DNA of 64,000 nt, from contig CM040091.1 in NCBI GenBank assembly GCA_022496805.1, positions 18,652,336 through 18,716,335 on the forward strand. The letters run 5' to 3'. Source of the DNA: Pohlia nutans (Eukaryota > Streptophyta > Bryopsida > Bryales > Mniaceae). The position numbers and the translations under genes were made by a program. Shown here piece after piece: positions 2,632 to 64,000 of the stretch. Numbering within the stretch: the stretch's first letter is position 1; the number at the start of each line of letters is the position of its first letter. Under the pieces are notes generated by a model. It did not search any database, was not told the DNA's origin, and was given only the letters and a program-made list of their open reading frames with translations.

Positions 2632-5600
2632 ATGGCGGAAGGCCTCCACTGTCCTCGGGGATTGATGACATCGTCTCTCGCCGTGTGCCGCAATGGCTCC
2701 GCAACGTCTTCATCTCCACTGCAGGTTCGTCTTGTTTCCTGGGATTTAGGGTTCATCTGATTGGATTGCGAGGAAGTAGTTGCAATTTTCAAGAGTTGAG
2801 CTCTTTGTAAAACAATGCGTTTCTGCCATGAGTAGTAAGGTAGAGGATACTCTTTCCGTCACTTTTGAGCATTTTAACCAGTATGCTTTCATTGGGATCA
2901 CTACAGTTACTCCAAGAACCAAATCTTTTTTTTTTTATCAAATTTTTCTCACTCAACTTATGAAGTTCTTATGCAAGCGGGAGGTTGTGGAACACTCTTG
3001 AAGGGACAGTAGACAACCCCGTTAGCCAATTCGTGCTTACAAATAACTTGCTAATTGAAGGCCAACCAAGTGTATTGGAAAAGATGAGTTGTTGTTGTCG
3101 ACAGGGATCAGTCAATACGAGACGGGATTAGGTCCCTCACGGTTTTAGTATCCTCTACCTTAGAAGTGTTAACGCCTAAAGTCCCAAGAAGCTTGAATTA
3201 GACCTTTTGATTTTAACCCCTAAAGGACCAAGGATTCATAGTTTTAAAATGACAAGTTTAAACAATCATATTTTGAAAATTATAATTTGAATGGGACCAA
3301 ATTTTATATCGCTAGAATCAGTGAAGAATATTACAAATGTTGAATTAAAAATAAAAATAAAATAAACATAAAAGAATCTACATAAAACCGACTCAAAAGC
3401 ACTGAAAAAAACAGGAACCACCTGGTGGCCTTATGGTCCTTTAGGGGTTAAAGTAGTTTTGAGTAAGTTCTATGTTTACTTCTTTTTTTTCAAATTTAGT
3501 TGTTTTTTTTACCATCGCACATAATGTTCTTCACTGATTCCAGTGATATAAAATTTGGTCCTATCTGAATTATACTTTTCACAATATGATCGTTTCAATT
3601 TATCATGAATCCTGAAGTGGTCCTTTAGGAGTTGAGCATTGTGGTGTTCTTGAGATGAGTGCCTGCTTTTGGCAGGTAGTATCGCTGAGGAGGCGTGCCA
3701 TCAAGGGTAGCGTGGAAAGTTTGACGGTTTTTTCGAGGCGAGGTCATTCGAGGCAAGGCTGTGTAGCGCTTGCAAGTTTGGAAGGGCCGAATGAGTTGTC
3801 GAGGGGAGCTGCCCTATTCTGCGGGTGGGCTCGGAGGCAGACAATCACGGCACTCAGGTGGGGAGGCCAGCTGTGGTGTCTGCCTTCGGCGCCCGTCAGC
3901 TTCGATGCAGTGGAGTTCGCAGAGCAATCGGTGAGAACTTGTTTACTTTTTTGCCCAACTGTTTTGACTTCTGTTGTTGAATTAAAGGTAGAGCCTACAC
4001 TTTAACCCCTAAAGGACCGTAAGGCCACCAGGTGGCTCCTGTTTTATGTAGATTCTTTTTTGTTATTTTTATTTTTATTTTTAATTCAACATATGAAATA
4101 TTCTTCACTGATTAAAATTTGGTCCCATTCAGATTATAACTTCCACAATAAGATTGTTTAAACTTGTCATTTTAAAACTATGAATCCTTGGTCCTTTAGG
4201 GGTTAAGCATTGCAAAGTGTATACGAGTGTGACTTTTGGGGGATACAAGAGCCAAATCTTTTGAGATCAAACCTTTATCATTATGTTTGGATTTCTTATG
4301 CAATCTCAAAGTAGGAGTTTCTAGACCACTTCTCCCTCTGTCCGGAAATAACTGTCCTAGTTTTGTGGCATGTTTTAACTTAATGCTTTTTTGGCCGTAT
4401 CAACACTCGAAAAATGGTACTCTCATTGTCTGCCCTGTTTGAAGGGGACAGGGCTTTCGTTTGAAGTATAAAACATAGGAAAAGTATTGCAAACAAAAGA
4501 TGTTAAAACTAGGTCAATAATTTCCGGACAGAGCGAGTATATACATTAGATGACCCCATTTCCATTCAAAGATTAGTGGCCATATACATTTAGCCAAGTC
4601 ATTTATACACCCAACTTGCTAATTGGAGGCCAACGAAGTTTATGAGTTGCTGTTCAATATAGGAGACGGGATCAGGTCCCTAATAGTTTTAGTATCCTCT
4701 ACCTGACGTCAAGTTTTTTCGCAGGCATTTCAGTCTCATTGGCAAGCTACGATGAAGAGACGCGGCTTAGTTTTCATCCTTAGTTCTTTGCTTGTAACTG
4801 GAGCTCTAGCGAGCTTTGCGCTTCAACCCTCATGTACGTTTATAAATCGTTTCATTGGATGATGGATATTTTTTTTTTCCCAGTCTTGGGTCAAGAAATC
4901 CTGTGACTAGCTGCAAGCAAAGTAAACCCTTGTTGGCATTTCTTCTGAAAGGCATGTTTGTGTAAACAGCTTCAAAGGACGCATTGTTGACATAGTTACT
5001 CTATGCCTGCTTTCAGTATCATTGACGGAAGAGAATCTTATCTTTCTTGAGGCGTGGCGGACTGTTGATCGTGCATATGTGGACAAATCATTCAATGGTC
5101 AGAGCTGGTTTAGATACCGCGAAGACGCTCTAAAAAAAGAGCCGATGAGAACACGAGAGGACACTTGTACGGTCTTTTTCCTCTTCCACAATTAAATCAA
5201 AACCTAATGTTGAAGTTGTCATATCCTTAAAGTTGATTTGGGCTATTTGTTATAAAAACATACGTAGCGCTAGACCTAAATTTGTGTAGGGATTACTGTC
5301 AGCACGGGGTTTGTTGCCGTGTTCTACGTCTTGCGTATTTCATCTTTCATGTTCAAGCAGGGATGTCAGCTGACTCAGCTTTAATCAGGATTGGCTCTGT
5401 GCATACCGTGGTTGCTCAGACGCAGCTATTCGAAAGATGCTGGCAACTCTGGACGACCCTTTCACTCGATTTCTGGAGCCTGAGAAATTCAAAAGCTTGC
5501 AGGTGGGTGAGAGTTTCTAGGGTTTTATTCGAAATAGTTTTTCTTCGCTTGCACATAAATGAGCACCTTCACAGCAACCTTTTCAATGCTTATGTTCTAT

Positions 5601-8169
5601 CTCCTTTTTTGAGCCTTGCCAAACTGAAATGGGTTATTTGTTATTACCTGGTCATGCAGTCAGGTACAAATGGTGCTGTGACGGGGGTTGGATTGGAAGT
5701 TGGCTTCAACACAAGTGACTCGAGTACCTCAAACGAAGATTTGGTCGTAGTATCTCCTGTTTCAGGAGGTCCTGCAGCGCGTGCAGGAGTGGTTCCAGGA
5801 GATTTAATCATGGCCATCGATGGTATCCCAACACATGGCATGGGTCTTTATGACGCAGCAAGGCGTCTGCAGTAAGTTTTTTCCATTCCTGGAGCTTTTT
5901 CCTCCAATGCTGAAAGATTGGATTTGGCACAAGCAGAAAGAATTCTTTTGGAGGTAACACATTGTTTAGTGAAAACAACGCAATTTCAGTGAAGAATGTT
6001 TGGTTTAATGTACCCTTACTCATCGCTAATTCTTGTTGAAGGTGGTAATATGAGACTCAGCTTTTGGCTTTTGCAACAGGGGTCCAGTACAATCTGAAGT
6101 TCAACTGACATTACTGAAGAAGGAATCTACAACTCCGAAGACAATCACGGTCACGTAAGCTCTTTCTCTTTTTCAATACAAACGATTCTATTTTCGAGTG
6201 GTGACTTCTAATCAGTCCCTAAACGGTTTGACTATCGATTCTCTTACACTGTCCTACATTGTTTTGTTAGGCGAGAGAAAATCACGCTGAATCCAGTCAC
6301 ATGGCGATTGTGTGAGGTTCCACAAAAAGATGGATCAGCTCCACTTAAGCTGGGCTACATTCGGCTCTCTACTTTTAATCAGAATTCCTCCAGTACGTCG
6401 TCCATGAAGCTTTCTTGTTACTTTTGAATGTTGATTAGTCGTATGGATTTCTTTTCACTTGGACCCTTTCTTCAAGTTTGCACTGGGTGACATCTGAAAC
6501 ATAGTTTTGGTATCCATCTCCTTCAATATTCCTGAAGATTGAGTTCATATTTCGATTGCTGTTCTCGCTTCTGGACTGAGATGAATGCAATTTTCCTTAT
6601 AGTTCTGTATTCTGATTTGTATTCGTTTTTTATGGAGCAGGTGCTGTGAAGAAAGCAATTGAGACTTTGCAAGAGAGTGGCGCAGCAGCATTCATACTTG
6701 ACATTCGTAATAACAGGTTTTTACTTCACATTTTACAGGCTAGGCTAGATTAGACTGGACCTTTAAGAACATTTAAAAAAAATTCTAATGGAAGTTGACT
6801 AGGTGCATCTCTTATCTTCCACAATGCTCGGTTGGTATATTTACACAAAATGACCATGCTTAGTTTTATATTTGCAAGAGTTCGGAAGATAATAAATTGG
6901 TTGTAAGCAAAGTGCTGCTGCAGTGACTCTGTTTATGGTATGTACTCTTCTTTTATGTCCCTAAATCTCATTGAATACTGTCTCTATAGAAGTCTTTGAC
7001 ATGAAAGTCACTTTCTGTTGCAGCGGTGGCCTATTTCCTTCCGGAGTTGAGATAGCAAAAATGTGGTAAGCTATAAGAACGTACTGTTTACTTTCAATCT
7101 ATTGTACGCTCAGTGAATTAGATGGTTTTGGGTTGTCATTATAAGCTAGAGCGATTCGTGCAGAGAAACAGCGGGTGCTCAAAATTGATTTCTCTGGATA
7201 TTCCCCTTCCGAATACCAGCAACGTTTTAACAGGATGATGCTAAGCTTGTGTTCGGATTGTTATCAGGCTGGATAAAGGCGTCATTGTGTACATTGCCGA
7301 TAGCATGGGCGTCCGAGATATCTATGACACTAATGGAAGCTCAGCTATCTCTACCAAAGAACCTCTAGCTGTATTGGTAAGCTGGTGATGGAGTTTTCAA
7401 AGGTCAAACAACATGGCTAATCTCGTGTAGTTAAGGACTCCGCCCTCAATTGAATGGCAGTTCTATCAGAAGTAGGTTCTGATTAGTCTTATGTAATGCT
7501 TTGTGGTTATACGACAGGTGAATAAGGGTACAGCGAGTGCGAGTGAAATTCTAGCAGGAGCTCTCAAGGACAACAAGCGGGCTGTAATTCTAGGGGAACC
7601 TACGTTTGGCAAAGGGTAAGAAATGGCTGCCATCATCTAATCTAGTTTACCATAGAATATGGAGCCTGGTTGCCTCGTGTTTTGAATCGCTTGCATTGGC
7701 CATTGTTTTCAGTTGTGCCGAACCTTGTCAGTTCTTAAGTCTTTGTCTAATTCATAACCTCTGGTGAGCAGGAGAATACAATCTGTGTTTCAGTTATCTG
7801 ATGGTTCAGGCATGGCGGTCACTATTGCTCGCTACGAAACTCCAGCTCATATCAACATCGACAAGGTGCACTAGCTCTCCACTCACCATTTGTTTTCCCA
7901 TTTGAATTTCGATCCCAACACTGGATAGTCTGAACTGCCTCACCTGTCGAAGACTCCTTAATTTATGACTCGGAAGTTTCTTCACCGAATGCTTGTGTTT
8001 TTTTGGAGTAGTATTTTAATATTGGTTTCATACGTGAATGTAGGTGGGTATTACACCTGATCGCCCACTTCCTGCTGCACTGCCCATGGACGAGGAGGCG
8101 TTCTGCCGTTGCCTTGAAGATCCTTCCTCAGACTGTAATCTCTCTTTCGCCTCTCTGTTTAGTGGATAG
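2632..8169 (+). CDS. CtpA: Thylakoid C-terminal processing peptidase (D1 protease), 14 exons
   Basis: Exons fitted by splice sites and phase: 2632-2724, 3676-3930, 4725-4833, 5017-5166, 5420-5502, 5660-5871, 6080-6154, 6271-6392, 6641-6716, 7024-7065, 7268-7376, 7518-7615, 7772-7865, 8044-8169. They give 547 aa with no frame break. Exons 1-2 encode an Arg/Ser-rich plastid transit region, and exon 3 a hydrophobic stretch ([19 protein letters not shown]) like a lumen-targeting signal. Then come the family hallmark [13 protein letters not shown], a PDZ domain (about residues 231-300, GVGLEVGF), and the tail-protease domain with Ser449 in GTASASE and Lys474 in TFGKG, spaced 25 residues as in Prc and D1 protease. 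In the family this serine protease trims the C-terminus of photosystem II D1 protein in the thylakoid lumen. All catalytic residues are present. Introns 1 and 2 are largely made of nested transposons. The start codon is the least certain part. Confidence 0.92.
2837..3161. mobile_element. TIR element (AAGGTAGAGGATACT ends) in CtpA intron 1
   Basis: The ends AAGGTAGAGGATACT and its inverse AGTATCCTCTACCTT bound 325 bp with no coding sequence. The right third is similar to 4608-4704 in the next intron, showing a dispersed family. Confidence 0.65.
3169..3635. mobile_element. TTAA-type MITE, interrupted by a second copy
   Basis: The outer element starts TTAACGCCTAAAG and ends with the inverse (CCTTTAGGAGTTGA). 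Its two halves are split by a complete younger element at 3213-3451. It lies in CtpA intron 1, ending 40 bp before exon 2. Confidence 0.75.
3213..3451. mobile_element. TTAA-type MITE nested in an older copy
   Basis: Starts TTAACCCCTAAAGGACCAAG and ends with CCTTTAGGGGTTAA, with the family interior (ATATAAAATTTGGTCC-type motif inverted). It is inserted inside the copy at 3169-3635. Confidence 0.85.
4002..4206. mobile_element. TTAA-type MITE in CtpA intron 2
   Basis: Starts TTAACCCCTAAAGGACC and ends GGTCCTTTAGGGGTTAA. About 205 bp, non-coding, same family as the copy at 3213. Confidence 0.85.
4332..4537. mobile_element. Stowaway-like MITE
   Basis: The inverted ends CTCCCTCTGTCCGGAAATA and the matching inverse at 4518-4537 follow the plant Stowaway (mariner) pattern CTCCCTCCGT. 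About 206 bp, non-coding. A TA target duplication is not clear here. Confidence 0.7.
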
Positions 8170-9367
8170 TTTGTTGGCAGGAAGAATGTGCACATTTACT
8201 GATCACCTTGCGCACCCAGGATTACGTGCTCAGCAAACTCTGCCTGATTCTGTCATGCTCAAGTCTGATCAGGATAAGCTTGATAGTCATGGCGAGGTTT
8301 GAGCAATGTGCAAAGTGCTCAGTTGTAATCTTATTCTTGATTTATTGAAGGTGATGTCCTAACGGAAATCCACCCCAAGTTCCCCTCTTATGTATTTGTC
8401 CTTCGCTACAAAACGGAAATCGGAAATTTATCGCTACTTTTCAGACGTTTGATGTTTTCATTTCTACAGTACTGAAACATCACTGGGAGCTCCGAAATGC
8501 ATTGAATCTCACCCCTCCCATATCACGAAATGACAGGGAATGTAAGAATCACATCCCCAACTCTTAATAAGTGTCTTTTGTTACTGATACACTAGTAAAG
8601 CCGATTTTTGAATGCTTCTCAACTTCAACCAATCACAACCCAAATTTTATTCTCAACTCTTGGCATTTGTCCTTCAAAGTGTAAAATAGGCCCTTCTAGG
8701 TTCCCTTTGAGTTTCATTTGCTTTTTATAGTTGAGTTCTTTCATAACAAGATTTAACTTACACCTTTCTTGTGGTTCATGGATAGACAAAAGGCTATTTT
8801 GTAGAAAACTATAAAAGGAAAAGGTTGGCAATGTCCAACTTTCTTAATTTTGTCGTGATACTATTGTAAGCATATTAATGTGTAATGAAAACGAACAATA
8901 AATCATACAATAATGAAAAAAATGCAATGCAAATGTAAATGAAGAAAAGAAATAAAATGAACATTGTTTGAATTGCTCTCATGTAGAATTAAATTTCAAA
9001 AGACATATTAGATTATGACTTTCATTACGGTTGTGCGTAGCATTGCATAGCCTTAGACTTTTATATAGTAAATGATTTCTCAAAAATCCACAAATATATA
9101 GACTAAAATTAAAAGGGGACGTCTTCCTTCAACATAAATGTTTGCTCTGTTAGGTAACTACTTCAAGATTTAAGATATACCACAAGTCATTAGCGCAATT
9201 GGTGTGACCAAAATAGTATGAATGTTTCATGCATTCACTCTATTCATAATTATAATCTTTTTCTTTACTTTGTATATCTTTCTACTTTATCTCTTTTACA
9301 TTATATTTCTAGCCCTGATTTTTTGTTTCATCTTTTACTTTATATCTTTTGCTTTTGAAACAAAGCG

Positions 9368-9375
9368 TATAAATA
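9368..9375 (+). promoter_or_regulatory. TATA box of RING gene copy 1
   Basis: TATAAATA ends 120 bp before the ATG. The same motif stands at the same distance in the other three copies (28596-28603, 36433-36440, 63161-63168 on minus). Confidence 0.6.
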
Positions 9376-9494
9376 AGCATTGTAGACATTCATTTTATTT
9401 CACAAATGTACATGATATTTGTATAATTCGAGTGGATGGTATAACGTTTTATTAAAAAAGAATTATTTTTTGTACTTTTAGACTTTGTAACGCA

Positions 9495-10019
9495 ATGACG
9501 TCATCAGTACTTGTAAATGTTGCTAGATTTGCGGATAATTTGTTGGATTCTGAAGATCGACAAACCCATTTACAGCTAAATAACGTAACATGTAGTGTTT
9601 GTCTTGAGAATGTATCAAGGGACCAATATACCACCAAGTGTGGACATTGCTTTTGTGTAGAATGCATATTAGAATGGTCTACAAGCCAAAGTTGTTCTAA
9701 TCAATCTTCAAAAACATGTCCATTATCTAGAAGCAATATTGAACAAGAATTGAAAATTTTTAGATTCGAATCAAAGTTTGATCCAAACTATCTAGACACG
9801 AACTATCTAGACACAATTTTACTCACACATTTGGTCTTTTTTGAACATATTGTGGTTCAAGAGTGCAACAATTTGTTGGGTCCGACATTGATAGCCTACA
9901 AGTTACCGGAAAATGTTTCAGAAGATGTAAAAAATTCCATCAGCAAAATTACTGAGAAGTTTATTTATATTTGTAATAGTCGTTGTGATAATAGAGTTAT
10001 CCGTAAACTAAAGGGTTGA
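9495..10019 (+). CDS. RING-finger protein, copy 1 (last zinc ligand lost)
   Basis: 174 aa, one exon, carried inside the Helitron-like element. A short N-terminal part (ARFADNLLD) is followed by a C3HC4 RING: CSVC, KCGH, FCVEC, then TCPLSR. The eighth ligand, Cys in the other intact copies, is Ser here (codon 9726-9728, tct instead of tgt). The C-terminal half ends with the family motif KLPENVSEDVKNS and a basic tail. RING proteins of this type usually act as E3 ubiquitin ligases; this copy may have impaired zinc binding. Nearest relative in the window is copy 3 (36560-37069). The protein outside the RING is not recognised. Confidence 0.8.
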   Translation: MTSSVLVNVARFADNLLDSEDRQTHLQLNNVTCSVCLENVSRDQYTTKCGHCFCVECILEWSTSQSCSNQSSKTCPLSRSNIEQELKIFRFESKFDPNYLDTNYLDTILLTHLVFFEHIVVQECNNLLGPTLIAYKLPENVSEDVKNSISKITEKFIYICNSRCDNRVIRKLKG

Positions 10020-10441
10020 GTGAACCTTAGTTTGACTAAAATTTGGAGAAATGAAAACTATTGAGAGAAATTCTAGGAAATCAAAAGAATGGGTGAGTGG
10101 GGACGGTTTAGGTATATATAGTGAGAATCTATTGTCAGAAAAGGGGCTAGCAATCACCTTCTTCATGTGTGAAGGTGAATAATAGAAACTTGAGTGAGAA
10201 GTTTTTTAGCACCAATTTTGGTGCTTTCAAAGTTTGTATCCACAGTTTTTTTTTAGTGCCCGACAGATGTTCTTTTTTGAGGAAAACCACGGTCCACTCA
10301 CCTACTTTTGAAGGACTTTACGAATAACTCTAATATGTAAAAGCTTTTCCATACACAAATTATATAAAACATAATTACAATTATATATTGCAACTATAGA
10401 AATTCCTATCTTTTGATTATTGACAGTCCTTTAATTAATTA

Positions 10442-10709
10442 CTAGTAAATCTCGAGTTACAATGCAACACATAACTAAATAAACATGATCAAGAAATATG
10501 GACTCCATTGCAAAAGAATGTTGATTGAAAGAAATTGAAAAACTTGATTATAGATGAAAACAATTTACAGAATAGGCAAATGGATGACAATGGATGAAAA
10601 TGATATATAATGAGATATTTGATGATAATTGATGGGTGTAAAACTTGGATGAAAATGTGACGGATTTTGTGACATAGGGGTCGTGACACTCTGCATTTAA
10701 TATAATAGA
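10442..10709 (-). mobile_element. Internal Helitron-end unit within copy 1
   Basis: On the minus strand this 268-bp piece begins TCTATTATATT at 10709 and ends with a small hairpin (GTTGCATTGTAAC) and CTAG at 10442, followed by T. It looks like a complete short non-autonomous Helitron, with the RING segment lying beyond its 3' end. The matching unit is 37509-37766. Confidence 0.65.
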
Positions 10710-17053: not shown

Positions 17054-17382
17054 TTAACCCCTAAAAGTCCCATCATCCAGAATTGGATCATGAACAGATT
17101 AGAAGCTTCGCATCTTTTTCATACAATTTTGAATGACTTTCATCCAAGTCACATTTGTAAACCTGTTAAGTTCTCCACCAATTACAATAAATCTCTTGTG
17201 ATGGGGACCTGTTGATAATATTGGAGAGGCCTCCAACTACAAGTATGTCAAATTTTTTGGGTAGATTTTATGCTTGCAATGGTTCTCTCAAGTACGCCTC
17301 ATGTACATTTGAGCCATGCTAATATCTATTTTCAAGGCTAGCATCTACTTCTGTTCAAAGGGCTGGTACGTTTAGGGGTTAA
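17054..17382. mobile_element. TTAA-flanked element, CCCCTAAAAGTCCCATC ends
   Basis: Starts TTAACCCCTAAAAGTCCC and ends CGTTTAGGGGTTAA. The interior differs from the GGACCAAG family. It abuts the next element, sharing one TTAA at 17379-17382. Confidence 0.7.
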
Positions 17383-17617
17383 CCCCTAAAGGACCATAAG
17401 GTCACCAGGTTGCTCCTGTTTTTGTCAATAATTTTAAGTAGGTTTTATGTAAATTCTTTTTGGTTAAATTTAAAAAATAAAAAATTCAACATATATACTT
17501 TTCTTCACTAATTCCACTGATATAAAATGTTGTTCCATTCAAATTATAATTTTCACAATATGATTGTTTAAACTTGTCATTTTGAAAACCATGAATCCTT
17601 GGTCCTTTAGGGGTTAA
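17379..17617. mobile_element. TTAA-type MITE
   Basis: Starts TTAACCCCTAAAGGACC and ends GGTCCTTTAGGGGTTAA, with the standard interior. Shares its left TTAA with the preceding element and its right TTAA with a following, 5'-trimmed relative that runs to about 17842. Confidence 0.85.
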
Positions 17618-17842
17618 CCAAGAAGCCCAAATTGAGTCTCATGTTTTTTCAACAATTTTGAATTAGTCCTATGTAGACTTCCTTTTATTCAAATTTCTCT
17701 CTCTTTTGATCAACACATGCAATGTTCTTCATTGATTCGAATGATATAAAACGTGGACGTGTGTGAATTATATTTCTCACAACATGATCAATTGAATTTG
17801 TCATTTTAAAATCATTAATCCTTGGTCCTTTAGAAATTAATT
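17614..17842. mobile_element. TTAA-type MITE, trimmed end
   Basis: Begins TTAACCAAGAAGCCCAAATTG, lacking the first dozen bases of the terminal repeat, then follows the family to 'tccttggtcctttagaaatt'. Directly adjacent to the copy at 17379. Confidence 0.65.
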
Positions 17843-27420: not shown

Positions 27421-28595
27421 AAGATAAGAATCAAATAAATGAATAAAATGCCTATTTACAATGTATGGGATTGTCGAAAGACAAAAATCCTTGTTTTAAA
27501 GAGAATTCTTTGAACAATTTTTTAATGCAAATGGGGGCCAAGTGCATGATTATATAGTCAAGTGCGTGGATAGAAAATTGCGTGTTTAACAAAATCTCAA
27601 CCTCAAACAATTAATAAGACAAAAATATAAAGAAAAACAAAACTTCACGTTTCCTTTTTTATTTCCATTTTCACGGTCCATTTTAAGTGTCCTTTACTAG
27701 AATTTCAGTCAGGTCTACTTCGTAAAGGTGGAGGTGAATGAAATTTTGGAGGATACAAATATACGTACTTTTCACAAGCGAAAAAGATGCCTTTCATGTC
27801 ATCTTTTTCTCCCACCTCTTTTGTGTTGTTTTTTTTAGTATACCAGTAAAGCCGATTTTGGAATGCTTCTCAACTTCAACCAATCGCAACCCAAACTTTA
27901 TCCTCAACTCTTGGCTTTTGTCCTTTGAAGCGTAAAATAGGCCCTTCAAGGTTCCCTTTGAGTTTCTATTGCTTTTATTAGTTTAGTTCTTTCATAATAA
28001 GATTTAACTTACACCTTTCTTGTAGTTCATAGATAGACAAATGGCTATTTTTGGAGAAAACTTCAAAAGGCAATGTCCAACTTTCATAATTTTGTCGTGA
28101 TACTATTGTAAGCATATTAATGTGTAATGAAAACGAACAATAAATCATACAATAATGAAAAAAATGCAATACAAATGTAAATGAAGAAAAGAAATAAAAT
28201 AAACATTGTTTGAACTGCTCACAATCATGTAGAAGTAAATTTCAAAAGACATATTAGATTATGACTTTCATTACGGTTGTGTGTAGCATCGCATAGCCCT
28301 TTGACTTTTATAAATCCACAAATATATAAACTATAATTAAAAGGGAACGTCTTCCTTCAACATAAAGTTTTGCTCTATTAGGTAACTACTTCAAGATTTC
28401 AGATATACCACAGGTCATTAGCGCAATTGGTGTGGCCAAAATAGTATGAGTGTTTCATGCATTCACTCTATTTATAATTATAATCTTTTTCTTTACTTTG
28501 TATATCTTTTTACTTTATCTCTTTTACTTTATATTTCTAACCTTGATTTTTTATTTCATCTTTTACTTTATATCTTTTGCTTTTGAAACAAAGTG

Positions 28596-28603
28596 TATAA
28601 ATA
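28596..28603 (+). promoter_or_regulatory. TATA box of RING gene copy 2
   Basis: TATAAATA ending 120 bp before the ATG at 28723, as in the other copies. Confidence 0.55.
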
Positions 28604-28722: not shown

Positions 28723-29214
28723 ATGACGTTATCAATACTTGTAAATGTTGCTAGATTTGCGGATAATTTGTTGGATTCTGAAGATCGACAAACCCATTTA
28801 CAGCTAAACAACGTAGTATGTGGTATTTGTCTTGAGAATATATCAAGGAGCCAATATACCACCAAGTGTGGACATTGTTTTTGTGCAGAATGCCTATTAG
28901 AATGGTCTACAAGCCGAAGTTGTTCTAATCAATCTTCAAAAACATGTCCATTTTGTAGAAGTAATATTGAAGAAGAATTGAAATTTTTTAGATTTGAAAC
29001 AAAGTTTGACTTAAACTATCCAAAAACATTTTTAGACGAACTTTTGGACATTTTAGAATCTCAAGTTTTTCAAGAGTGCACCAATTTTTTGGGTCTAGCA
29101 TCGATAGGCTACAAGTTACCGGAAAATGTTTCAGAAGATGTAAAAAATTCCTTCATAAGAATTATTGAGCAGTTTAATGAAGTTGTTGAAATATATTATA
29201 ATAGAGTTAACTGA
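28723..29214 (+). CDS. RING-finger protein, copy 2 (intact C3HC4)
   Basis: 163 aa, one exon. All eight RING ligands are present: CGIC, KCGH, FCAEC and CPFC. The C-terminal part (LNYPKTFLDELLDILESQ, KLPENVSEDVKNS) is closest to copy 4 and differs from the tail of copies 1 and 3. Likely an E3 ubiquitin ligase by RING type; substrate unknown. The gene keeps its own TATA box and an open frame, which suggests recent activity or selection. Confidence 0.82.
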   Translation: MTLSILVNVARFADNLLDSEDRQTHLQLNNVVCGICLENISRSQYTTKCGHCFCAECLLEWSTSRSCSNQSSKTCPFCRSNIEEELKFFRFETKFDLNYPKTFLDELLDILESQVFQECTNFLGLASIGYKLPENVSEDVKNSFIRIIEQFNEVVEIYYNRVN

Positions 29215-29856
29215 AAAGTCAACCCCAAAAGGAAAGATTTGACAAACTCGTGTTGAAATAGAAATAGACAAAAAACTAATCTGTGACGAGTTGGGAGACA
29301 ATCTAAAACAAGGCCCTGTCAATATTCTCCACACCTAGCTATGGCTCCCACACCTTTCACCAAAGCTCCAAGCCCGTGGCCGACTATGGGACAATCTATG
29401 ACAAGACACTATTCCTCCCAAGTATAGCTCAAAAGAGAAGTTAGAAGTAGAAAAAAAAAGAAAAAGTTAGATAGTCTTCTTTTCGGTTAACTCTAATATG
29501 TAAAAACTTTTCCAAACACAAATTATGTAAAATATAATTACAATAATATATTGCAACTATAGAAATTCTTATCTTTTGATTATTGATACTCGTTTAATTA
29601 ATTATTAGGCTAGAAAGTCGTTCGAGCAGCCTCACCGGTTGATTTCGAAAGAGGATGAATGTTTCTGTTCATCAAAGCGACGAATTTCGTCAAGAGGATG
29701 CCATGCTCCTCCAAGCCTTCATCAGTTTCTAGGGTTTGGTGCGCATCAGAGCCCTTTGTTGCAAATTTCGATTTGTCGCACTGATCGGGAGAAGCCATCG
29801 CTCAGTCAAGGAGTTCCTTGTGAAATCTCTGGTTCTTCGACGCGGTGTCCTCTCTG

Positions 29857-35652: not shown

Positions 35653-36432
35653 ATACTAGTAAAGCCGATTTTTGAATGCTTATCAACTTCAACCAATCAT
35701 GACCCAAATTTTATTCTCAACTCTTGGCATTTGTCCATTGAAGCGTAAAATATGCCCTTATAGGTTCCCTTTGAGTTCCTTTTTCTTTTTTTAGTTTAGT
35801 TCTTTCATAACAAGATTTAACTTACACCTTTTTTGTGGTTCATAGATAGACAAATGGCTATTTTTGGAGAAAACTTCAAAAGGAAAAAGTTGGCAATGTC
35901 CAAATTTCTTAATTTTGTCGTGATACTATTGTTAGAATATTAATGTATAATGAAAACGAACAATAAATCATACAATAATGAAAAAAATGCAATGCAAATG
36001 TAAATGAAGAAAAGAAATAAAATGAACATTGTTTGAATTGCTCACATGTAGAAGTAAATTTCAAAAGACATATTAGATTATGACTTTCATTACGGTTGTG
36101 CGTAGCATTGCATAGCCTTAGACTTTTATATAGTAAATGATTTCTCAAAAATCCACAAATATATAAACTATAATTAAAAGGGAACGTCTTCCTTCAACAT
36201 AAAGTTTTGCTCTATTAGATAACTACTTCAAGATTTAAGATATACCATAGGTCATTAGCGCAATTGGTGTGGCAAAAATAGTATGAGTGTTTTATGCATT
36301 CACTCTATTTATAATTATAATCTTTTTCTTTACTTTGTATATCTTTTTACTTTATCTCTTTCACGTTATATTTCTAACCCTGATTTTTTATTTCATCTTT
36401 TACTTTATATCTTTTGCTTTAAAAACAGAGTG

Positions 36433-36440
36433 TATAAATA
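36433..36440 (+). promoter_or_regulatory. TATA box of RING gene copy 3
   Basis: TATAAATA ending 120 bp before the ATG at 36560. Confidence 0.55.
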
Positions 36441-36559
36441 AGCATTGTAGACATCCAGTTCATTTCACAAATGTACATGATATTTGTATAATTCGAGTGG
36501 ATGGTATAACTTTTTATTAAAAAAGAATTATTTTTCGTACATTTAGGCTTTGTAACGCA

Positions 36560-37069
36560 ATGACGTCATCAGTACTTGTAGATATTGCTAGATTTGCGGA
36601 TAATTTGTTGGATTGTGAAGATCGACAAATCCATTTACAGCTAAATAACGTAACATGTAGTATTTGTCTTGAGAATGTATCAAGGGACCTATATACCACC
36701 AAGTGTGGACATTGCTTTCGTGCAAAATGCATATTAGAATGGTCTACAAGCCAAAGTTGTTCTAATCAATCTTCAAAAACATGTCCATCATGTAGAAGCA
36801 ATATTGAACAAGAATTGAAACTTTTTAGATTCGAAACAAAGTTTTACCCAAACTATCTAGACACAATTTTAAGCAGACTTTTGGACTATTTTCAACATAT
36901 TGTGGTTTTAGAGTGCAACAATTTGTTGGGTCCAACATTGATAGTGTACAAATTACCGGAAAATGTTTCAGAAGATGTAAAAAATTCCATCAGAGGAATT
37001 ATTGAGAAGTTTATTTATATTTGTAATGAACGGTGTGATAATAGAGTTATCCGTAAACAAAAGGGTTGA
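36560..37069 (+). CDS. RING-finger protein, copy 3 (fifth zinc ligand lost)
   Basis: 169 aa, one exon. The RING reads CSIC, KCGH, then FRAKC, then CPSC: the fifth ligand is Arg (codon 36719-36721, cgt instead of tgt). The rest, including KLPENVSEDVKNS and the basic end, is close to copy 1. With one ligand missing the second zinc site may be impaired. No stop or frameshift is present. Confidence 0.8.
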   Translation: MTSSVLVDIARFADNLLDCEDRQIHLQLNNVTCSICLENVSRDLYTTKCGHCFRAKCILEWSTSQSCSNQSSKTCPSCRSNIEQELKLFRFETKFYPNYLDTILSRLLDYFQHIVVLECNNLLGPTLIVYKLPENVSEDVKNSIRGIIEKFIYICNERCDNRVIRKQKG

Positions 37070-37508
37070 GTGAACCTTAGTTTGACTAAAATTTTGGAGA
37101 AATGAAAACTATTGAGAGAAATTCTAGGAAATCAAAAGAATGGGTGAGTGGGGACGGTTTAGGCATATATAGTGAGAATCTATTGTCAGAAAAGGGGCTA
37201 GCAATCACCTTCTTCATGTGTGAAGGTGAATAATAGAAACTTGAGTGAGAAGTTTTTTAGCACTGATTTTGGTGCTTTCAAAGTTTGCATCCATAGTTTT
37301 TTTTTAGTGCCCGACAGCTCTTTTTTGAGGATTACAGTCACTAATCACTCAAATCATGGTCCACTCACCTACTTTTGAAGGACTTTACGAATAACTCTAA
37401 TATGTAAAAGCTTTTCCAGACACAAGTTATATAAAACATAATTACAATTACATATTGCAACTATAGAAATTCCTATCTTTTGATTATTGATACTTGTTTA
37501 ATTAATTA

Positions 37509-37766
37509 CTAGCAAATCTCGTGTTGCAATGCAACACAAAACTAAATAAACATGATCAAGAAATATGGACTCCATTGCAAAAAAATGTTGATTGAAAGAA
37601 ATTGAAGAACTTGATTATAGATAAAAACAATTTACAAAATTGGCAAATGGATGAAAATGATATATAATGAGATATTGGATGTTAATTGATGGATGTAAAA
37701 ATTGGATGCAAACGTGACGGATTTTGTGACATAGGGGTCGTGACACTCTGCATTTAATATAATTGA
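37509..37766 (-). mobile_element. Internal Helitron-end unit within copy 3
   Basis: 258 bp on the minus strand: 5' TCAATTATA at 37766, and at the other end a perfect 8-bp stem (gtgttgca a tgcaacac, 37521-37537) followed by CTAG at 37509-37512 and a T. This is a textbook Helitron 3' end located inside the larger element. Confidence 0.75.
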
Positions 37767-53648: not shown

Positions 53649-53881
53649 TTAACTCCAAAAGAACCAAGGATACATGGTTTTAAAATGAAAAGTTCAATTG
53701 ATCATACTATGAAAAATATAATTCAGATGAGACTAATTTTTATATCACTGGAATGAGTGAAGAACATTTCAGGTCAAACAACAAATAAATTTGAACAAAA
53801 AGAAGTTCATATAGGATTCACTCAAAATTGTTAAAAAAATCATTAGGCCCAATTTGGGCTTCTTGGTCCTCTAGGCGTTAA
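53649..53881. mobile_element. TTAA-type MITE in RNase H gene intron
   Basis: Starts TTAACTCCAAAAGAACCAAG and ends GGTCCTCTAGGCGTTAA, with standard interior. Confidence 0.8.
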
Positions 53882-56706: not shown

Positions 56707-56946
56707 AATGACCCAAAAAGGACCAAGAAGCCAAAATTGGGCCTCATGTTTTTTGAGCAGTTTTGAGTAGATCTTTTGTGAACTTTGTTCTTGTTCAAAT
56801 TTCTTTGTTTCTTGATCAACAAATACAATGTTCTTCACTTATTTTAGTGATATAAAATTTGACTCTATTTGAATTCTATTTTCCGCAATGAAATCAATGA
56901 AATTTTTCATTTTAAAACCATGAATCCTTGGTCCTTTAGGGGATAA
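56707..56946. mobile_element. TTAA-type MITE, worn ends
   Basis: Left end 'gacccaaaaaggaccaagaa' and right end 'cttggtcctttaggggata' with standard interior; both TTAA sites have mutated. Confidence 0.7.
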
Positions 56947-58302
56947 TATGACAATCCATACAATGACAATCCAATGACAATCCATAATATGACGATATTA
57001 CTATTTCAACCAATACACATGTGACAAGGCAATTCTATCACTATCTCAAATTCTAATAGAATCAACTAGTGCATTTGGTTGTTTTTGAGTTATTTTGTCC
57101 AAGCCCCACTTGAGTGAGATGAGTAAGATGAGTGAAAATGGATCATAATAGGACAAGAGAGTGGAGGTGAAATTTTGCCTAGTATGTGCCTTGCAGTCGA
57201 CATGGCTGGAGGCTATAGGTTCTGAGCAATTGAGACCCCATCTTACTATTGGAGGCTCACTACGAGTAGCTCTTGAGTAAGATGCCTCAATTAATTTAAC
57301 CATGATTTGAAGTAGTGTGACTAATCCATGCATGGTAGGGCTTTTGCATGACTGATCCTTCATCCTCTTTCTCCTCTGAATCTAGTGTTACTCTGGAAAT
57401 TGTACCAAATGCCAAAATTTGATTTTAACAATTATATAAAAATTCATCATAAATAAGGTAAGATTACCAAGAAGATTACTCAAGATTACAAAAAAGTTTG
57501 GCTCGTGTACCCTAAGTGATCTCTTCAATGAACTGGAACGTATGTGCACCTACAGTAGTGTCACTGCCTAAAGTCTAACCGTATCGTTCTTCAAATGAAA
57601 ATATTCATTATAAACATATACATCATTATGACATTAGGTTTATTATCAATAAATGGTGAACCTATTTTTAGCACTTTGAAAAATCATATATTATTTATAT
57701 GGTGTCAAAAGGATGCATACTAAAGTGTACTGGAGTCTTCTTTCAAATTCCAATAAGATTTTGGATATGACATAATAAAAATAATTTTAAGAAAATCCTA
57801 GTGACATTTCTCTACTCTCTAATAAGTGGCAACTATGACCTTATAATATGATCTCCAAATGAAAGCACATTCCTACATATTGATTGAAATGTTGAAAAAC
57901 ATGCGCACTCTTTCATGCTCGAGTTCACCCTCAAACTCACATCTATATTTGAAAAGTCCAACTTAAAGTTCACCATCCTCATACATCAAATGTGTTTTCT
58001 TAATAATCAATGAGCCAATCACAAGTATATGTTTAACTAAATTTAGGTTTGAATAGCCATTGTTTGACACAAAATGACCAATGTTTTTGTTTTTATGAAG
58101 GTGGTTGAACTCCTAAGTCTTCATACATGATACTTTATAGGGAAGAACTTTGGAAGAACTTGACAGAGGCTTACCTTACATAAAATAAAATAAATTGGAT
58201 ATGACTAGAGGCTATTTGAAAGGCCCCTCAACATTTTTCATCCAGTTTCATTGGTTGTGTGCTAAACCCTCCCAGCACAAGGATGGGGATGCTCTAAATA
58301 AT

Positions 58303-58538
58303 ATCCCCCAAAGGGCCAAGGATTCATGGTTTTAAAATGTCAAATTCAATTAATTATATTGTGAAACGTATAATTTAGATGAGACCAAATTTTATACCAC
58401 CAAAATCAATGAAGAACAATGCATGTGTTGGTCAAAAAATGAATAAATTTGAACAAAAAGAAGTTCACTTAGGACCTACTCAAAACTACTAAAACAAACA
58501 TGAGGCCCAATTTGGGTTTCTTGGTCCTTAAAGGATAT
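58303..58538. mobile_element. TTAA-type MITE, worn ends
   Basis: Left 'atcccccaaagggccaagga' and right 'cttggtccttaaaggatat', standard interior. Lies 40 bp from exon 2 of the RNase H gene. Confidence 0.7.
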
Positions 58539-58845
58539 CCTCAACATCTAGGGATGGTGAGGATTTGGGGGCATTACCTGGCTGTGGACGAGGCGAGAGT
58601 CGCCCTTCACGAGGAGGAACTCCACTCCAAGGGAGAGGGCTTTCTTCAAGCCAGCAATGAGAGCCTTGTACTTGGCCACACCCGAAGACACGCCGGGCCC
58701 AACTAATTTTTTCAACTCCACCACGGTGTGGCCACGGCTGTTCTTCAGCACGGCACCGATGCCGGCTGCATCAATTTTTTTACACACTTTTTATTTATTT
58801 TTAGCTAAATGAGTGGTGAGAAAAGAAAATTCTCGACTAAATTCA

Positions 58846-59076
58846 TTAACCCCTATAGGAATCATGGTTATAAAATCACAAATTCAATTGATCATATTCA
58901 ATCAAATTGTAATTCAGATTGGACTAATTCTATATCACCAAAATCAGTGAAGAACATTGCATATGTTGGTCAAGAAACAAATAAATTTAGAGAAAAGAAA
59001 GTCCACATAGGATGTAATCAAAACTACTAAAACAACATGAGGCTTGATTCGGGCTCCTTGGTCCTTTAGGGGTTAA
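58846..59076. mobile_element. TTAA-type MITE
   Basis: Starts TTAACCCCTATAGGAATCATG and ends GGTCCTTTAGGGGTTAA. Confidence 0.8.
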
Positions 59077-59101
59077 AGGAACTCTTGGTGGCAATTAGCT
59101 A

Positions 59102-59184
59102 CTCCTTCTGTTCCAAAATAAAAAGCTCGTGGAAACACTGCTTCCAGTTATAAAAGGTGATTTTTATTTCAAAACAGAGGGAGT
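59102..59184. mobile_element. Stowaway-like MITE with TA duplication
   Basis: Ends CTCCTTCTGTTCCAAAATAA and the inverse ...TTTCAAAACAGAGGGAG, flanked by TA on both sides. Only about 83 bp long. Confidence 0.75.
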
Positions 59185-59827
59185 AAAAGTTAAGATTTTC
59201 TACAAAAATATGTTAAAATGAGTTTAATACATACCATTCTATATAGTTTTAGGATTTCACTTTTTGCTATACACTTAGAATTTTTTTATATCACCCCTTT
59301 GGTAACCAACGTACACGAGTTCAAAACTTGCTATGTGGAAAGTGTCTAATTACAATAGCAGATATTCTCTACAAATATTGGAATGGAATATTGGAGAGTG
59401 ATAATAATGAGTTCAAGATAAAAAAAAAACCTCCTATAACCCTTGAGCCCATCCATGAAAACCACCTAATTTTCAACCATATGATTAAAACCACGTCAAA
59501 GTTCTTACACAAGAAGGAATAAATGCCCTCATGAGTGTCGTAGAAAGCTCTTATAGAATGTTATGAACGTATCAATCCGTTTCAAAAATATTGAAGAATC
59601 TAGAATATTCTACCAAAATGACTACCGTACTCAGTTGTTAGGGTCAGCAAAATAAACTATAGATGCCCAAATTTTCAAGAATTTATTTTTTCAAAAACAA
59701 CTCTATAGTGAAAGAGAAACTTTGGGAATATCCACTAAATCTTGAAGAATATTCGCATCAATACGGCACTTTAATTAAACATTTGGCAGGAGTTGCCGAT
59801 CTTGGTTGCCAAGTACGGTATCAAAAG

Positions 59828-60066
59828 TTGACTCCTAAAGCACCAAGGATTCATGGTTTTAAAATTAAAAACTCAATTGATCGTATTGTGAAAAATATAA
59901 TATTGATAGGACCAGATTTTATATCACGGGAATTAGTGAAGAATGTTGCATGTGTTGGTCAAGCAACAAATAAATTTTAACAAAAATAAGACTACATAGG
60001 ACCTACTCAAAAGTGCTAAAAAAATCACGAGTCCCAATTTGAGCTTCTTGGTCCTTCAGGGGTTAA
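59828..60066. mobile_element. TTAA-type MITE
   Basis: Starts TTGACTCCTAAAGCACCAAG and ends GGTCCTTCAGGGGTTAA; abuts the next copy over a shared TTAA at 60063-60066. Confidence 0.8.
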
Positions 60067-60300
60067 CCCCTAAAGGACCAAGAAACCCAAATTGGACCTC
60101 ATTTTTGTTTTAGCAGTTTTGAGTAGGTCCTAAGTGAATCTCTTTTTGTTCAAATTTGTTTATTTTTTGACCAACACATGCAATGTTCTGCACTAATTCC
60201 AGTGATATAAAATCTGGTCCTATCTTGGTTATATTTTTCACAATACAATCAATTGAGTTTTTCATTTTAAAACCATGAATCTTGGTCCTGTAGGGGTTAA
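60063..60300. mobile_element. TTAA-type MITE, inverse orientation to its neighbour
   Basis: Starts TTAACCCCTAAAGGACCAAG and ends GGTCCTGTAGGGGTTAA; its interior runs opposite to the copy at 59828. Ends 52 bp before the GC donor of the RNase H gene. Confidence 0.85.
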
Positions 60301-60559
60301 AGTTTGTAGTAAATTTGTTAAGCTTGAAGAAAAAAGAAGTAACATCACTGGCCTGCAGAGTGGTTGTTGGTTCCAGTGTCCCGGGTAGCGCCGTCAAAGA
60401 AGAGGATCCAGGGAGACTGGGGTTGAGGTCTGGCTCCCATCACATTCCTCTCGAAGAAACGCACATCATGCATCAATTTTTCCTCACTAAAACCTAAGCT
60501 CTCTTCTCCACTTTCTGATATCAATGCTTCTGCATTTGCTGTTGAAGCACTACACCTTT

Positions 60560-62460
60560 TCTATATACAAATGTTGACATATTGCATTGATATTTGTACT
60601 AATCAAACAACATCAATCCAGTCTAAATTCTTCTGCAATCTCTTCTGCAATCTCTTCTGCTCTTTATGATATCAATGTCCCTGCATTTGCATCACATTCT
60701 TTAGCACATTGCACCATTTTTGTTTAGATATTGCACTAGCAAAGTACCATTCTTTAAAGTCCAAACAAGATAGATAGAAACTTGAGGCCAACTTGAATAA
60801 AGTGTTTGTTTGTAATGACAATGGGATCATTGGTGCAAAACTACTCTCCCCTTTCGGGAATAAACACTCTAGTGAGTCAAGTCCAAACAACACCAACCCA
60901 AATATAGCCTAAAATTTAAACTCCTCTACAATCTCTCTTTTTTACTTTATAATATCCTTGCCTTTGCTTTTGAAGCATTGCATTGTTCTCTAAAATGACA
61001 TTTTGGAATATCTTGCAAACTTGTCAAACTATCAGTGATTGTAGCACACTTTGAAACCAAGTAGTAGTCATATTTCGGAAACCTTGGCATTTAGATTTAA
61101 GAGATTAGAGTGTAGATATAGATCTTGAAATACTAAAAAGGAAAATTGTTGTTATTTTGGTTTTATAGCCATACATATGCATTTATACTTACATCATATT
61201 TTTTTTATTGCGTCCCTCGAGCTTCCTCTTGTTGTATCGATGCATTTAAAAAATGGAAGAATAAACATCATGAATACTCAAGATTCAAAAGCATTATGGA
61301 TGATTTCAAAGTGCTATGTAATCTTCACTTAATTCCTATACATAGCCTCCAATGTAATTTTATTTTTTTGAGACATATATAATATTTCTAAAATTCATGA
61401 AAGCACTCGGTTATGAGCTTTGATTTTGAACATTAGGGGAAAGGGTTTGGGATAGTGATGAAGGAAATGGCCAAGAGAGAGAAGGGCAACAAGAGGCGTG
61501 ACGACTGGGTTCCAAGCGTTTTCATCATAAATGTGGTTTATAAAAATGATAGGTGGGAGACAACTCATATTCCAAATGTATGGAAAGTCTATAATGTCAC
61601 CTTTTTTAATATTACATCCTCTCTTTCTTTACCAAACCCTAGGAAATAATCATTCAATTTGAAGTTGTTGTTTTATAAATTCTAACAAAGAAAAATCACA
61701 AGACAAGTGCACAGAAAGTGTTTTTTTGTTTGTGAAACTTGTCTTTGCTCATGAGTGGATCACAAACAACATAAGTGAGTTAACCGGGGAATTAACTAAA
61801 GGGCCAATGCACAGTACGGTTTACTAAATTGGCCTTCAATTTTTGTCTACACTTTGTGCACTAGGTGCATACATTGTAAATTTTTGTCTAAAAGGCTAAC
61901 TTTAAGCCTATTTTGAAATATGTAGCAATGATACGATTACAAAATAATGAAGTGAATAAAATTTTAAATTTATGTACTTGTTAGCTATAAAATAAAAGTT
62001 TGGTTTGTCAAAATGATTTTCTCATGAAGATTTTGAGTATCAAAACTCTCAGTCTAATAACAGTTTGACCAATTTATGATCAATCGTTGAATGTAAACAT
62101 AGTCCAGGTTTGATTCTATACTTGATTTAAAAAAATGTCTCCTTGCAAAATTTCATTCTTAAGCACATTCAAAAAAGAAATCCATCAAAAATGTTTTTAA
62201 AATAGAGAAGATATTCATCTTTACCAAAACTAACACATTTTAAAAATTAAAAATTGAAAAATATTGGATGATATAATTCTTCTTCACATGTTTGAACATT
62301 GATAAATAATTATAACTTAAAATTCCATCCACAACCCTCATTTTTCCTTCTTTTTAAAAAATGTGGTAGTGCACTAGTACAATGCGACGATGCACTATAA
62401 TTTTGAAATAAAATTCCATCAACAAGTATCAATAATCTAAAGATAAAAATTTATGTAGTT
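60560..62460. other. No gene recognised
   Basis: AT-rich sequence with short frames only. Upstream exons of the minus-strand RNase H gene may lie here but none could be supported. Confidence 0.45.
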
Positions 62461-62567
62461 GCAATATATTATTGTAATTATAATTTACATAATTTGTATA
62501 TATATCTATATATCTATATATGAATATATACTTAAAAGCTTTATGATTTTATTCACTACAAAATTCA

Positions 62568-63041
62568 CTAAACTGTTGAAATAATTCTTTTGATGGAATT
62601 TTTTACATCTTGTGAAACATTTTCCGGTAATTCCCAAGATATGAATGTTGAACCGCTAAAATTGCTCGATTTGCTCCAATCTTGAAAAACTTGAGATTTT
62701 AATTTGTGCCAAAACTCGTCCAAAAAAGTGTTTGGATAGTTTAAATCAAACTTTGTTACATCAATTTCGAATCTGAATTTTTTCAATTCTTGTTCAATAT
62801 TGCTTCTACATAATGGACATGTTTTTGAAGATTTGTTAGAACAACTTTGGCTTGTAGACCATTGTAATATGCATTCTGCACAAAAGCGATGTCCACACTT
62901 GGTGGTATATTGGTGATTTGATACATTCTCAAGACAAATAGTACATGCTATGTCATTTAATTGTAAATGGGTTTGTTGATCTTGAGAATTCAATATATCT
63001 TTTGCAAATCTAGCAACATATACAATTACCAATGTTGTCAT
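62568..63041 (-). CDS. RING-finger protein, copy 4 (intact C3HC4)
   Basis: 157 aa, one exon on the minus strand. All eight ligands are present (CTIC, KCGH, FCAEC, CPLC); the residue after the His is Arg instead of Cys. The C-terminal part (LNYPNTFLDEFWHKL, ELPENVSQDVKNS) groups with copy 2 and is shorter at the end. A likely E3 ligase by domain; TATA box at 63161-63168 stands 120 bp upstream. Confidence 0.82.
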   Translation of the reverse strand: MTTLVIVYVARFAKDILNSQDQQTHLQLNDIACTICLENVSNHQYTTKCGHRFCAECILQWSTSQSCSNKSSKTCPLCRSNIEQELKKFRFEIDVTKFDLNYPNTFLDEFWHKLKSQVFQDWSKSSNFSGSTFISWELPENVSQDVKNSIKRIISTV

Positions 63042-63160
63042 TGCGTTACAAAGTCTAAAAGTACGAAAAATGATTCTTTTTTAATAAAAAGTTATACCAT
63101 CCACTGAAATTATACAAATATCATGTTCATTCATAAAATGAAATGAGTATCTACGAAGCT

Positions 63161-63168
63161 TATTTATA
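63161..63168 (-). promoter_or_regulatory. TATA box of RING gene copy 4
   Basis: TATAAATA on the minus strand, ending 120 bp before the ATG at 63041. Confidence 0.55.
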
Positions 63169-64000
63169 TACTTTGTTTTAAAAGCAAAAGATGTAAAGTA
63201 AAAGAGATGAAATTCAAAATCAGGGTTAGAAATATAACGTAAAAGAGATAAAGTAAAAAGATATACAAAGTAAAGAAAAAGATTACAATAATGCATAGGG
63301 CAAATGCATGAAACACTCATACTATTTTGGCCACATCAATTGCGCTAATGATGTGGCCAAAATAGTATGAGTGTTCTATATCTTAAATCTTGAAGTAGTT
63401 AACTAATAGAGCAAAGCTTTATCTTGAAGGAAGATGTCTCCTTTTAATTATAGTTTATATATTTGTGGATTTTTGAAAAGTCATTTTCTATATAAAAGTC
63501 TAGGGCTATGCGATGCTACACACAACCGTAGTGAAAGTTATAATCTATTAATATGTCTTTTGGAATTTACTTCTACATGTGAGCGATTCAAACAATGTTC
63601 ATTTTATTCCTTTTCTTCATTTACATTTGCATTGCATTTTGTTCATTATTGTATGATTTACCGTATGTGAGGGTCAAATTCGGACAATATTGTATCGAAA
63701 TCTAATTTCCACATCATATTTTGAGAGGTCCATGTCACCATAAACCAATCACAAGATGACATGTGGCATTTTTTGACAAAAAACAATTCATTAATGTTGA
63801 AATTGACCACGACGTAGGATATTGTTCATTTTCATTACACATTAATATCCTTAGAAAAGTATCATGACAAAATATGAAAGGAAGACATCGCCAACCTTTT
63901 TCTTTTACAATTTTTTTTAGAAATAGCCTTTTGTGTGTCAAGGAAGGTGTGGGTTAAATCTTATTATGATAGAACTAAACTAAATAAAGAAAAAAAAACC

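Follow-up and report, generated by a model that had tools for sequence, protein, structure and literature searches.

Very probable capture of a host RING-finger locus by a 268-bp Helitron through 3' read-through

Copies and ends of the RING-carrying segment

A 2.1-kb segment that carries a RING-finger gene between Helitron-like ends occurs twice in the window, that is, in the 64,000-nucleotide stretch analysed here (C7:18652336-18716335 of a 698-Mb genome of 332 contigs). A first-pass annotation had described two collinear 2.1-kb copies with common end points and unrelated flanks. Indeed, copy 1 (8592-10709, minus strand) and copy 2 (35656-37766, minus strand) align end to end with ~92% identity, and their minus-strand ends read A/TC...CTAG/T, where the slash marks the boundary of the segment, with unrelated flanks at both ends. 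The end bases reported by that annotation were rechecked and are correct: the 5' TC lies at 10709 and 37766 and the distal 3' CTAG at 8592 and 35656. Positions preceded by q refer to the 2118 bp of copy 1.

Two further copies with both ends are present in the genome: (i) one on contig C3 (C3:36273220-36274509), which reads A/TC...CTAG/T and from which most of q1066-1912 is deleted, and (ii) one on contig C11 (C11:2314463-2318016), which ends with CTAG/T, contains two insertions and begins with TA instead of TC, within a long TA repeat. The A/TC...CTAG/T rule is thus followed in full in copies 1, 2 and C3, with a deviation at the 5' end of C11, and the end points are constant in the four genome copies (5' TC in three of four). 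As judged by eye, the insertions of the C11 copy measure ~1038 bp, with inverted ends (5155-6192 of the C11 stretch), and ~442 bp, with ends that also look inverted (3852-4293).

These four copies, hereafter chimeras, were retrieved by two genome searches. The search with copy 1 (40 of 1542 candidates scored) gave 53 matches, 25 of which correspond to a nested repeat alone; the search without this repeat (40 of 153 candidates scored) added weaker matches of 69-78% identity. Taken together, the matches listed include the four chimeras, eight host copies and a 534-bp fragment on contig C19. The host copies comprise c3 (gene at 28723) and c4 (gene at 63041) in the window, C17, C7b, two copies in C8a and two in C8b (C8b1 and C8b2), the capitalised names denoting stretches of the contigs so named; the chimera C3 is distinct from the host copy c3. 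The genes at 28723 and 63041 had been annotated as two more copies of the gene in related sequence; both are host-locus copies devoid of the Helitron part, and their membership in the element is not supported. The C19 fragment (C19:8092078-8092611) consists of a piece of the Helitron-borne RING gene and part of the MITE-like repeat described below, shares 94% identity with copy 1 and lies in unrelated surroundings, and the 268-bp core described below is absent from the 10 kb examined.

Several other features of the window were recorded. Open reading frames of the window match the profiles Glyco_hydro_17 with Chitin_bind_1, Malectin_like and Methyltransf_2, a combination of plant-like appearance. 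The region of c4 (57419-63658) and the RING cluster at C8:19100475-19106763 form a large segmental duplication, with 84-90% identity in pieces. Related repeats of ~100-240 bp, in both orientations and some of them in inverted pairs, are found at 3213-3633, 17371-17833, 53649-53881, 56711-56949 and 58302-60300.

A 268-bp canonical Helitron within the chimeras

The 5' part of copy 1 (q1851-2118; 10442-10709, minus strand) begins with the 5' TC and possesses its own 3' CTAG (10442-10445) followed by T; its counterpart in copy 2 lies at 37509-37766 (minus strand). The 3' end of this core consists of a hairpin, then 12 nt ending with CTAG, then T. The hairpin is perfect in copy 2 (GTGTTGC-ATT-GCAACAC; 37521-37537, minus strand), where 5 of 200 shuffled sequences fold equally well, and in C11, and it is decayed in copy 1 (10454-10470, minus strand; 97 of 200 shuffles).

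The core also exists alone. Out of 564 candidates, 40 were scored, and all 40 match it over nearly its full length (89-100% identity). Thirty of these loci, including copy 1, copy 2 and C11, were fetched for inspection of their ends: the preceding base is A and the following base is T in 30 of 30, the core starts with TC in 27 and ends with CTAG in 29, and the hairpin sequence is kept in most of them. The ends of the family are TCTATTATATTAAATGC and CGAGATTTACTAG. With at most two mismatches allowed, the genome contains 182 matches to a 27-bp pattern of the hairpin end, against none to the reversed control. No consistent target-site duplication was found among the 27 solo core loci, whose flanks agree over 2 bp in six cases (6.0 expected from base counts), over 3 bp in one, over 4 bp in two, over 5 bp in none and over 6 bp in one, this last locus being within a TA repeat. 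No terminal inverted repeats were seen by eye in the core. Among the 30 loci, with simple repeats masked and E up to 1e-8, 3' flanks that match within 15 nt of the core end are limited to copy 1, copy 2 and C11, and by the same criteria no 5' flank is common to any of the 30.

The 268-bp core is a complete canonical non-autonomous Helitron of a high-copy family. The assignment of the RING-carrying segment to the Helitrons in the first-pass annotation is retained, and the constant ends of the four chimeras, the insertion of the core between A and T, the lack of a consistent target duplication in the solo copies and the empty site of the host copies described below agree with it. Its view of the whole 2.1 kb as a native element is not, the segment being a 268-bp core joined to captured host DNA.

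The host locus: empty site and distal end

The remainder of copy 1 (q1-1850; 8592-10441, plus strand) corresponds to a host segment that comprises the promoter, the RING gene and its 3' flank, in antisense orientation to the Helitron. At the junction with the core, host relatives retain the undisturbed target site. Indeed, c3 and C17 read TTAATTA/TTAGG and the second C8a copy reads TTAACTA/TTAGG, and in copies 1 and 2 the core is inserted exactly at that host A/T. In c3 this empty site lies at 29604-29605. Beyond it, c3, C17 and the second C8a copy continue together for some tens of bases, and c3 and C8a further. The copies C8b1, C8b2, C7b and c4 diverge ~10 bases before the site and are uninformative there, so that the empty site, present at the insertion point of the core, is documented by the three host copies that retain this point.

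At the distal end (q1), homology among c3, C8b1, C8b2, the first C8a copy and C7b extends to either side, reaching over ~850 bp outside q1 between c3 and C8b1; around the c3 counterpart of this end (27842-27843), too, the sequence matches other host copies in both directions. Since these five hosts align across q1, this position delimits the Helitron-borne copies but does not interrupt the hosts. The host sequence reads CTGG or CTAG followed by T at q1 in c3, C8b1, C8b2 and C8a; C7b is altered at this position, and in c4 a different flank follows immediately beyond q1. The distal CTAG of copy 1 (8592-8595, minus strand) can hence be regarded as a cryptic 3' terminus from host sequence. A hairpin was sought at the distal end, where 32 and 33 of 200 shuffled sequences fold equally well, as chance would give. 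This end, unlike that of a canonical Helitron, has no significant hairpin, and we therefore refer to the chimera as a Helitron whose 3' end derives from the host.

In a midpoint-rooted tree of 12 copies, from which the C19 fragment and the weaker 69-78% matches were left out, copy 1, copy 2, C3 and C11 form one clade (100/99) with c3 as sister (100/100), and the branching among the four chimeras is not resolved. The tree and the flank pattern are explained by one capture from a c3-type locus. A table of K2P distances includes misaligned stretches for C3 and c3 and gives no basis for dating.

The nested repeat and the RING cargo

A MITE-like repeat is nested in the captured segment of copy 1 (9994-10330, plus strand), with the ends GAGTTATCCGTAAA and TTTACGAATAACTC and TAATA on both sides, and also in copy 2 (37044-37397, plus strand). 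It lies where the RING ORF ends, supplies the final residues and stop codon in copy 1, belongs to a high-copy repeat family of the genome, and occurs alone at 89-96% identity in at least 25 further places. The host copy c3 carries a different MITE-like repeat with similar ends (GAGTTA...TAACTC) at the same TAATA site (29204-29493). Because of this different interior, c3 in its present form was not the donor.

Four RING ORFs of the window match Pfam RING models above cut-off: those of copy 1 (9495-10019, plus strand, 174 aa), copy 2 (36560-37069, plus strand, 169 aa), the host gene c3 (28723-29214, plus strand), which groups nearest to the captured copies in the tree, and the host gene c4 (62568-63041, minus strand). 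They were scored with the eight-ligand RING pattern (C3HC4). The eighth zinc ligand is missing in copy 1 (S, in the motif CPLSRS) and the fifth in copy 2 (R, in the motif CGHCFRAKC). All eight ligands are kept in six host ORFs (c3, c4, C17, the second C8a copy, C8b1 and C8b2), and two host copies are broken, namely the first C8a copy (a stop and a missing ligand) and C7b (interrupted, with a missing ligand). Among the other Helitron-borne copies, C11 keeps all eight ligands and has its upstream region split by the 1-kb insert, C3 is cut off inside the RING and the C19 fragment is in two frames. The gene had been annotated as a complete single-exon RING gene with its own TATA box; its RING nature is supported by the profile matches and a promoter with the TATA box TATAAATA is carried along (9368-9375, plus strand; also at 36433 in copy 2 and at 28596 in c3), but the gene behind it is not intact, each chimera of the window lacking one zinc ligand.

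Pairwise dN/dS is 0.41-0.87 between host copies (15 pairs) and 1.40-1.61 between chimeric copies (three pairs), with values of 0.75-2.11 in mixed comparisons. The derived N:S counts, 41:7 in the chimeras versus 20:8 in the hosts, do not differ significantly (Fisher test with three of the six host copies, p 0.23), and the chimeras do not differ significantly from neutrality (p 0.21). The ORFs of copy 1, copy 2 and C11 are all open over 151 codons, which has a 2% chance in a rough neutral simulation limited to the first 151 codons, with copy 2 as ancestor and 30% of indels assumed to keep the frame. This result counts against a pure-passenger reading and is biased by the fact that the ORFs of copies 1 and 2 were noticed partly because they are open. 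A protein search with the c3 RING protein yielded three candidates, none with E of 0.001 or less, and a phage tblastn search gave no match.

The RING cargo is probably a passenger, a candidate ligase that would be without function in most copies, given the missing ligands, the C-terminus supplied by the MITE-like repeat, the truncated copy and the frameshifted fragment; the N/S counts agree with this, although not significantly. At the sequence level, the cargo bears no clear sign of selection.

Candidate sources of the transposase

The Helitron_like_N profile has 76 matches in the genome (86 of 86 candidates scored), 22 of which share an identical score of 207.3 bits and the same open frame of 1350 aa. 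One of these 22 was read (C2:16659030-16663076) and encodes Helitron_like_N, PIF1 and Pif1_2B. The two copies compared at their ends have TCATACTACTAAAATC preceded by A and CCAACCGCTAG followed by T. Where read, these two RepHel copies share 99.5-100% identity; they have different flanks and show A/TC...CTAG/T ends ~6.6 kb apart. The 22-copy RepHel element is probably an autonomous Helitron that was active very recently and perhaps still is. In the two copies compared, its ends are not those of the 268-bp family.

The first-pass annotation had also proposed to look for an autonomous Rep/helicase partner sharing the ends of the element. No such partner was found by proximity: the 100 core 3' ends listed, out of 182, are all more than 72 kb away from each of the 76 Helitron_like_N matches.

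Proposed mechanism and alternatives

Very probably, the chimera is the product of a 3' read-through capture of the host RING locus by the 268-bp Helitron. The non-autonomous element inserted at an A/T dinucleotide a short way downstream of the RING gene in a c3-type copy, as the empty sites of the relatives show. Judging from the anatomy of the chimeras, the machinery would, in a later rolling-circle event, have started at the 5' TC end, passed the hairpin and CTAG stop of the element itself, copied 1.85 kb of the host locus (the antisense RING gene together with the promoter and the flank upstream of it) and terminated at a CTRR/T that happened to be present in the host. The product is observed at four places with unrelated flanks. 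It would have reached them either through re-transposition of a single chimera or through several read-through events at one donor locus, and the branching among the four chimeras in the tree is compatible with both routes. The transposase would have been supplied in trans by an autonomous Helitron. Several points weigh against this mechanism. Neither genome search listed a donor locus, with the core and host flank continuing past the distal end, and we therefore infer this intermediate; the distal end lacks the significant hairpin of a canonical Helitron; C11 begins with TA instead of TC; and the MITE-like interior of c3 differs from that of the chimeras.

A defective terminator, moreover, does not account for the read-through, the internal hairpin of copy 2 and of C11 being intact. 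Both the internal and the distal ends keep CTAG in copy 1, copy 2 and C11. It may tentatively be proposed that a host sequence without a hairpin is now reused as a Helitron terminator in the four traceable RING-carrying copies, over an intact internal hairpin/CTAG end, and that Helitrons of plants can run past a hairpin that is intact; the count is biased, however, as copies that stop at the internal end look like ordinary solo elements and go uncounted.

Other readings were considered. The whole 2.1 kb could be an old native Helitron family whose host copies lost the 5' part, in line with the coincidence of the left ends in the chimeras and with c4, which loses homology exactly at that point. 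It is nevertheless very improbable and was rejected, because host copies continue across the distal end, c3, C8b1, C8b2, the first C8a copy and C7b having common sequence outside it and hence no border there, and because an undisturbed A/T empty site is present in three host copies; moreover, the core is terminated by a complete 3' end of its own and is found by itself in many copies. A segmental or tandem duplication of the RING locus that did not involve transposition would be compatible with the clustering of the host RING copies on C7 and C8 and with the position of copies 1 and 2 inside the C7 cluster, but it deserves practically no credence and was rejected given that the flanks of copy 1, copy 2, C3 and C11 are unrelated up to the same base, with fixed A/T at the ends; two of the four chimeras, besides, are on other contigs.

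The first-pass annotation had further seen in these copies a mobile ubiquitin-ligase-like gene family, which would make the RING gene a maintained, beneficial cargo. The open ORFs of copy 1, copy 2 and C11, the eight ligands of C11 and the promoter with TATA box carried along speak for such maintenance, while the non-significant contrast in dN/dS with the hosts, the ligand missing from each of copies 1 and 2 (whose open frames were part of the reason for noticing them), the truncation of C3, the frameshift of C19 and the split upstream region of C11 speak against it. A functional mobile ligase family is thus unlikely and was rejected in view of the missing ligands and of N/S counts that show no sign of constraint: what had been taken for a gene family amounts to one captured host gene with four traceable copies, mostly damaged.

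Comparison with known systems

Most Helitron gene captures are known only as end products. A literature search on Helitrons, RING fingers and gene capture returned work on fungi and vertebrates, as judged by title. Amplification of a cytochrome P450 gene by a maize Helitron has reportedly been described by Jameson et al. in 2008; it resembles the present case in that a host gene copy was amplified, the cargo here being an antisense RING gene with its promoter.

Among the Helitrons of maize, one carries a copy of the cytidine deaminase gene, ZmCDA3 (PMC1657028), and is likewise a case of a host gene copy amplified by a Helitron; the present cargo differs from it as a single-exon RING gene, in antisense, acquired with its promoter in one 3' read-through. 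Other maize Helitrons have multiple 3' termini, of which only one keeps CTAG (PMC3288121). They are alike in having more than one 3' terminus per element, whereas here the internal and distal ends are both CTAG in copy 1, copy 2 and C11.

A close parallel is the 3' read-through of Helraiser and Helibat. In Helraiser, the 3' end can be bypassed, a flanking 1.6-kb cassette being carried in ~11.7% of events, and in at least 36% of events when the hairpin is deleted (PMC4778049). The likeness extends to the TC...CTAG ends, the hairpin near the 3' end, the bypass and the transport of flanking DNA up to a de novo 3' end. The present copies differ in being natural copies in a plant-like genome where the donor gene family persists together with the empty site of the host, and in the internal hairpin, which is intact in two chimeras (copy 2 and C11). 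The donor locus apart, which is missing, one genome displays the element in solo form, the host site without it, the source of the new end and four products. This is an unusually clear Helitron gene capture by 3' read-through, a known process and not a new kind of system, and it documents as a natural event in a plant-like genome what was known from a reconstructed bat element.
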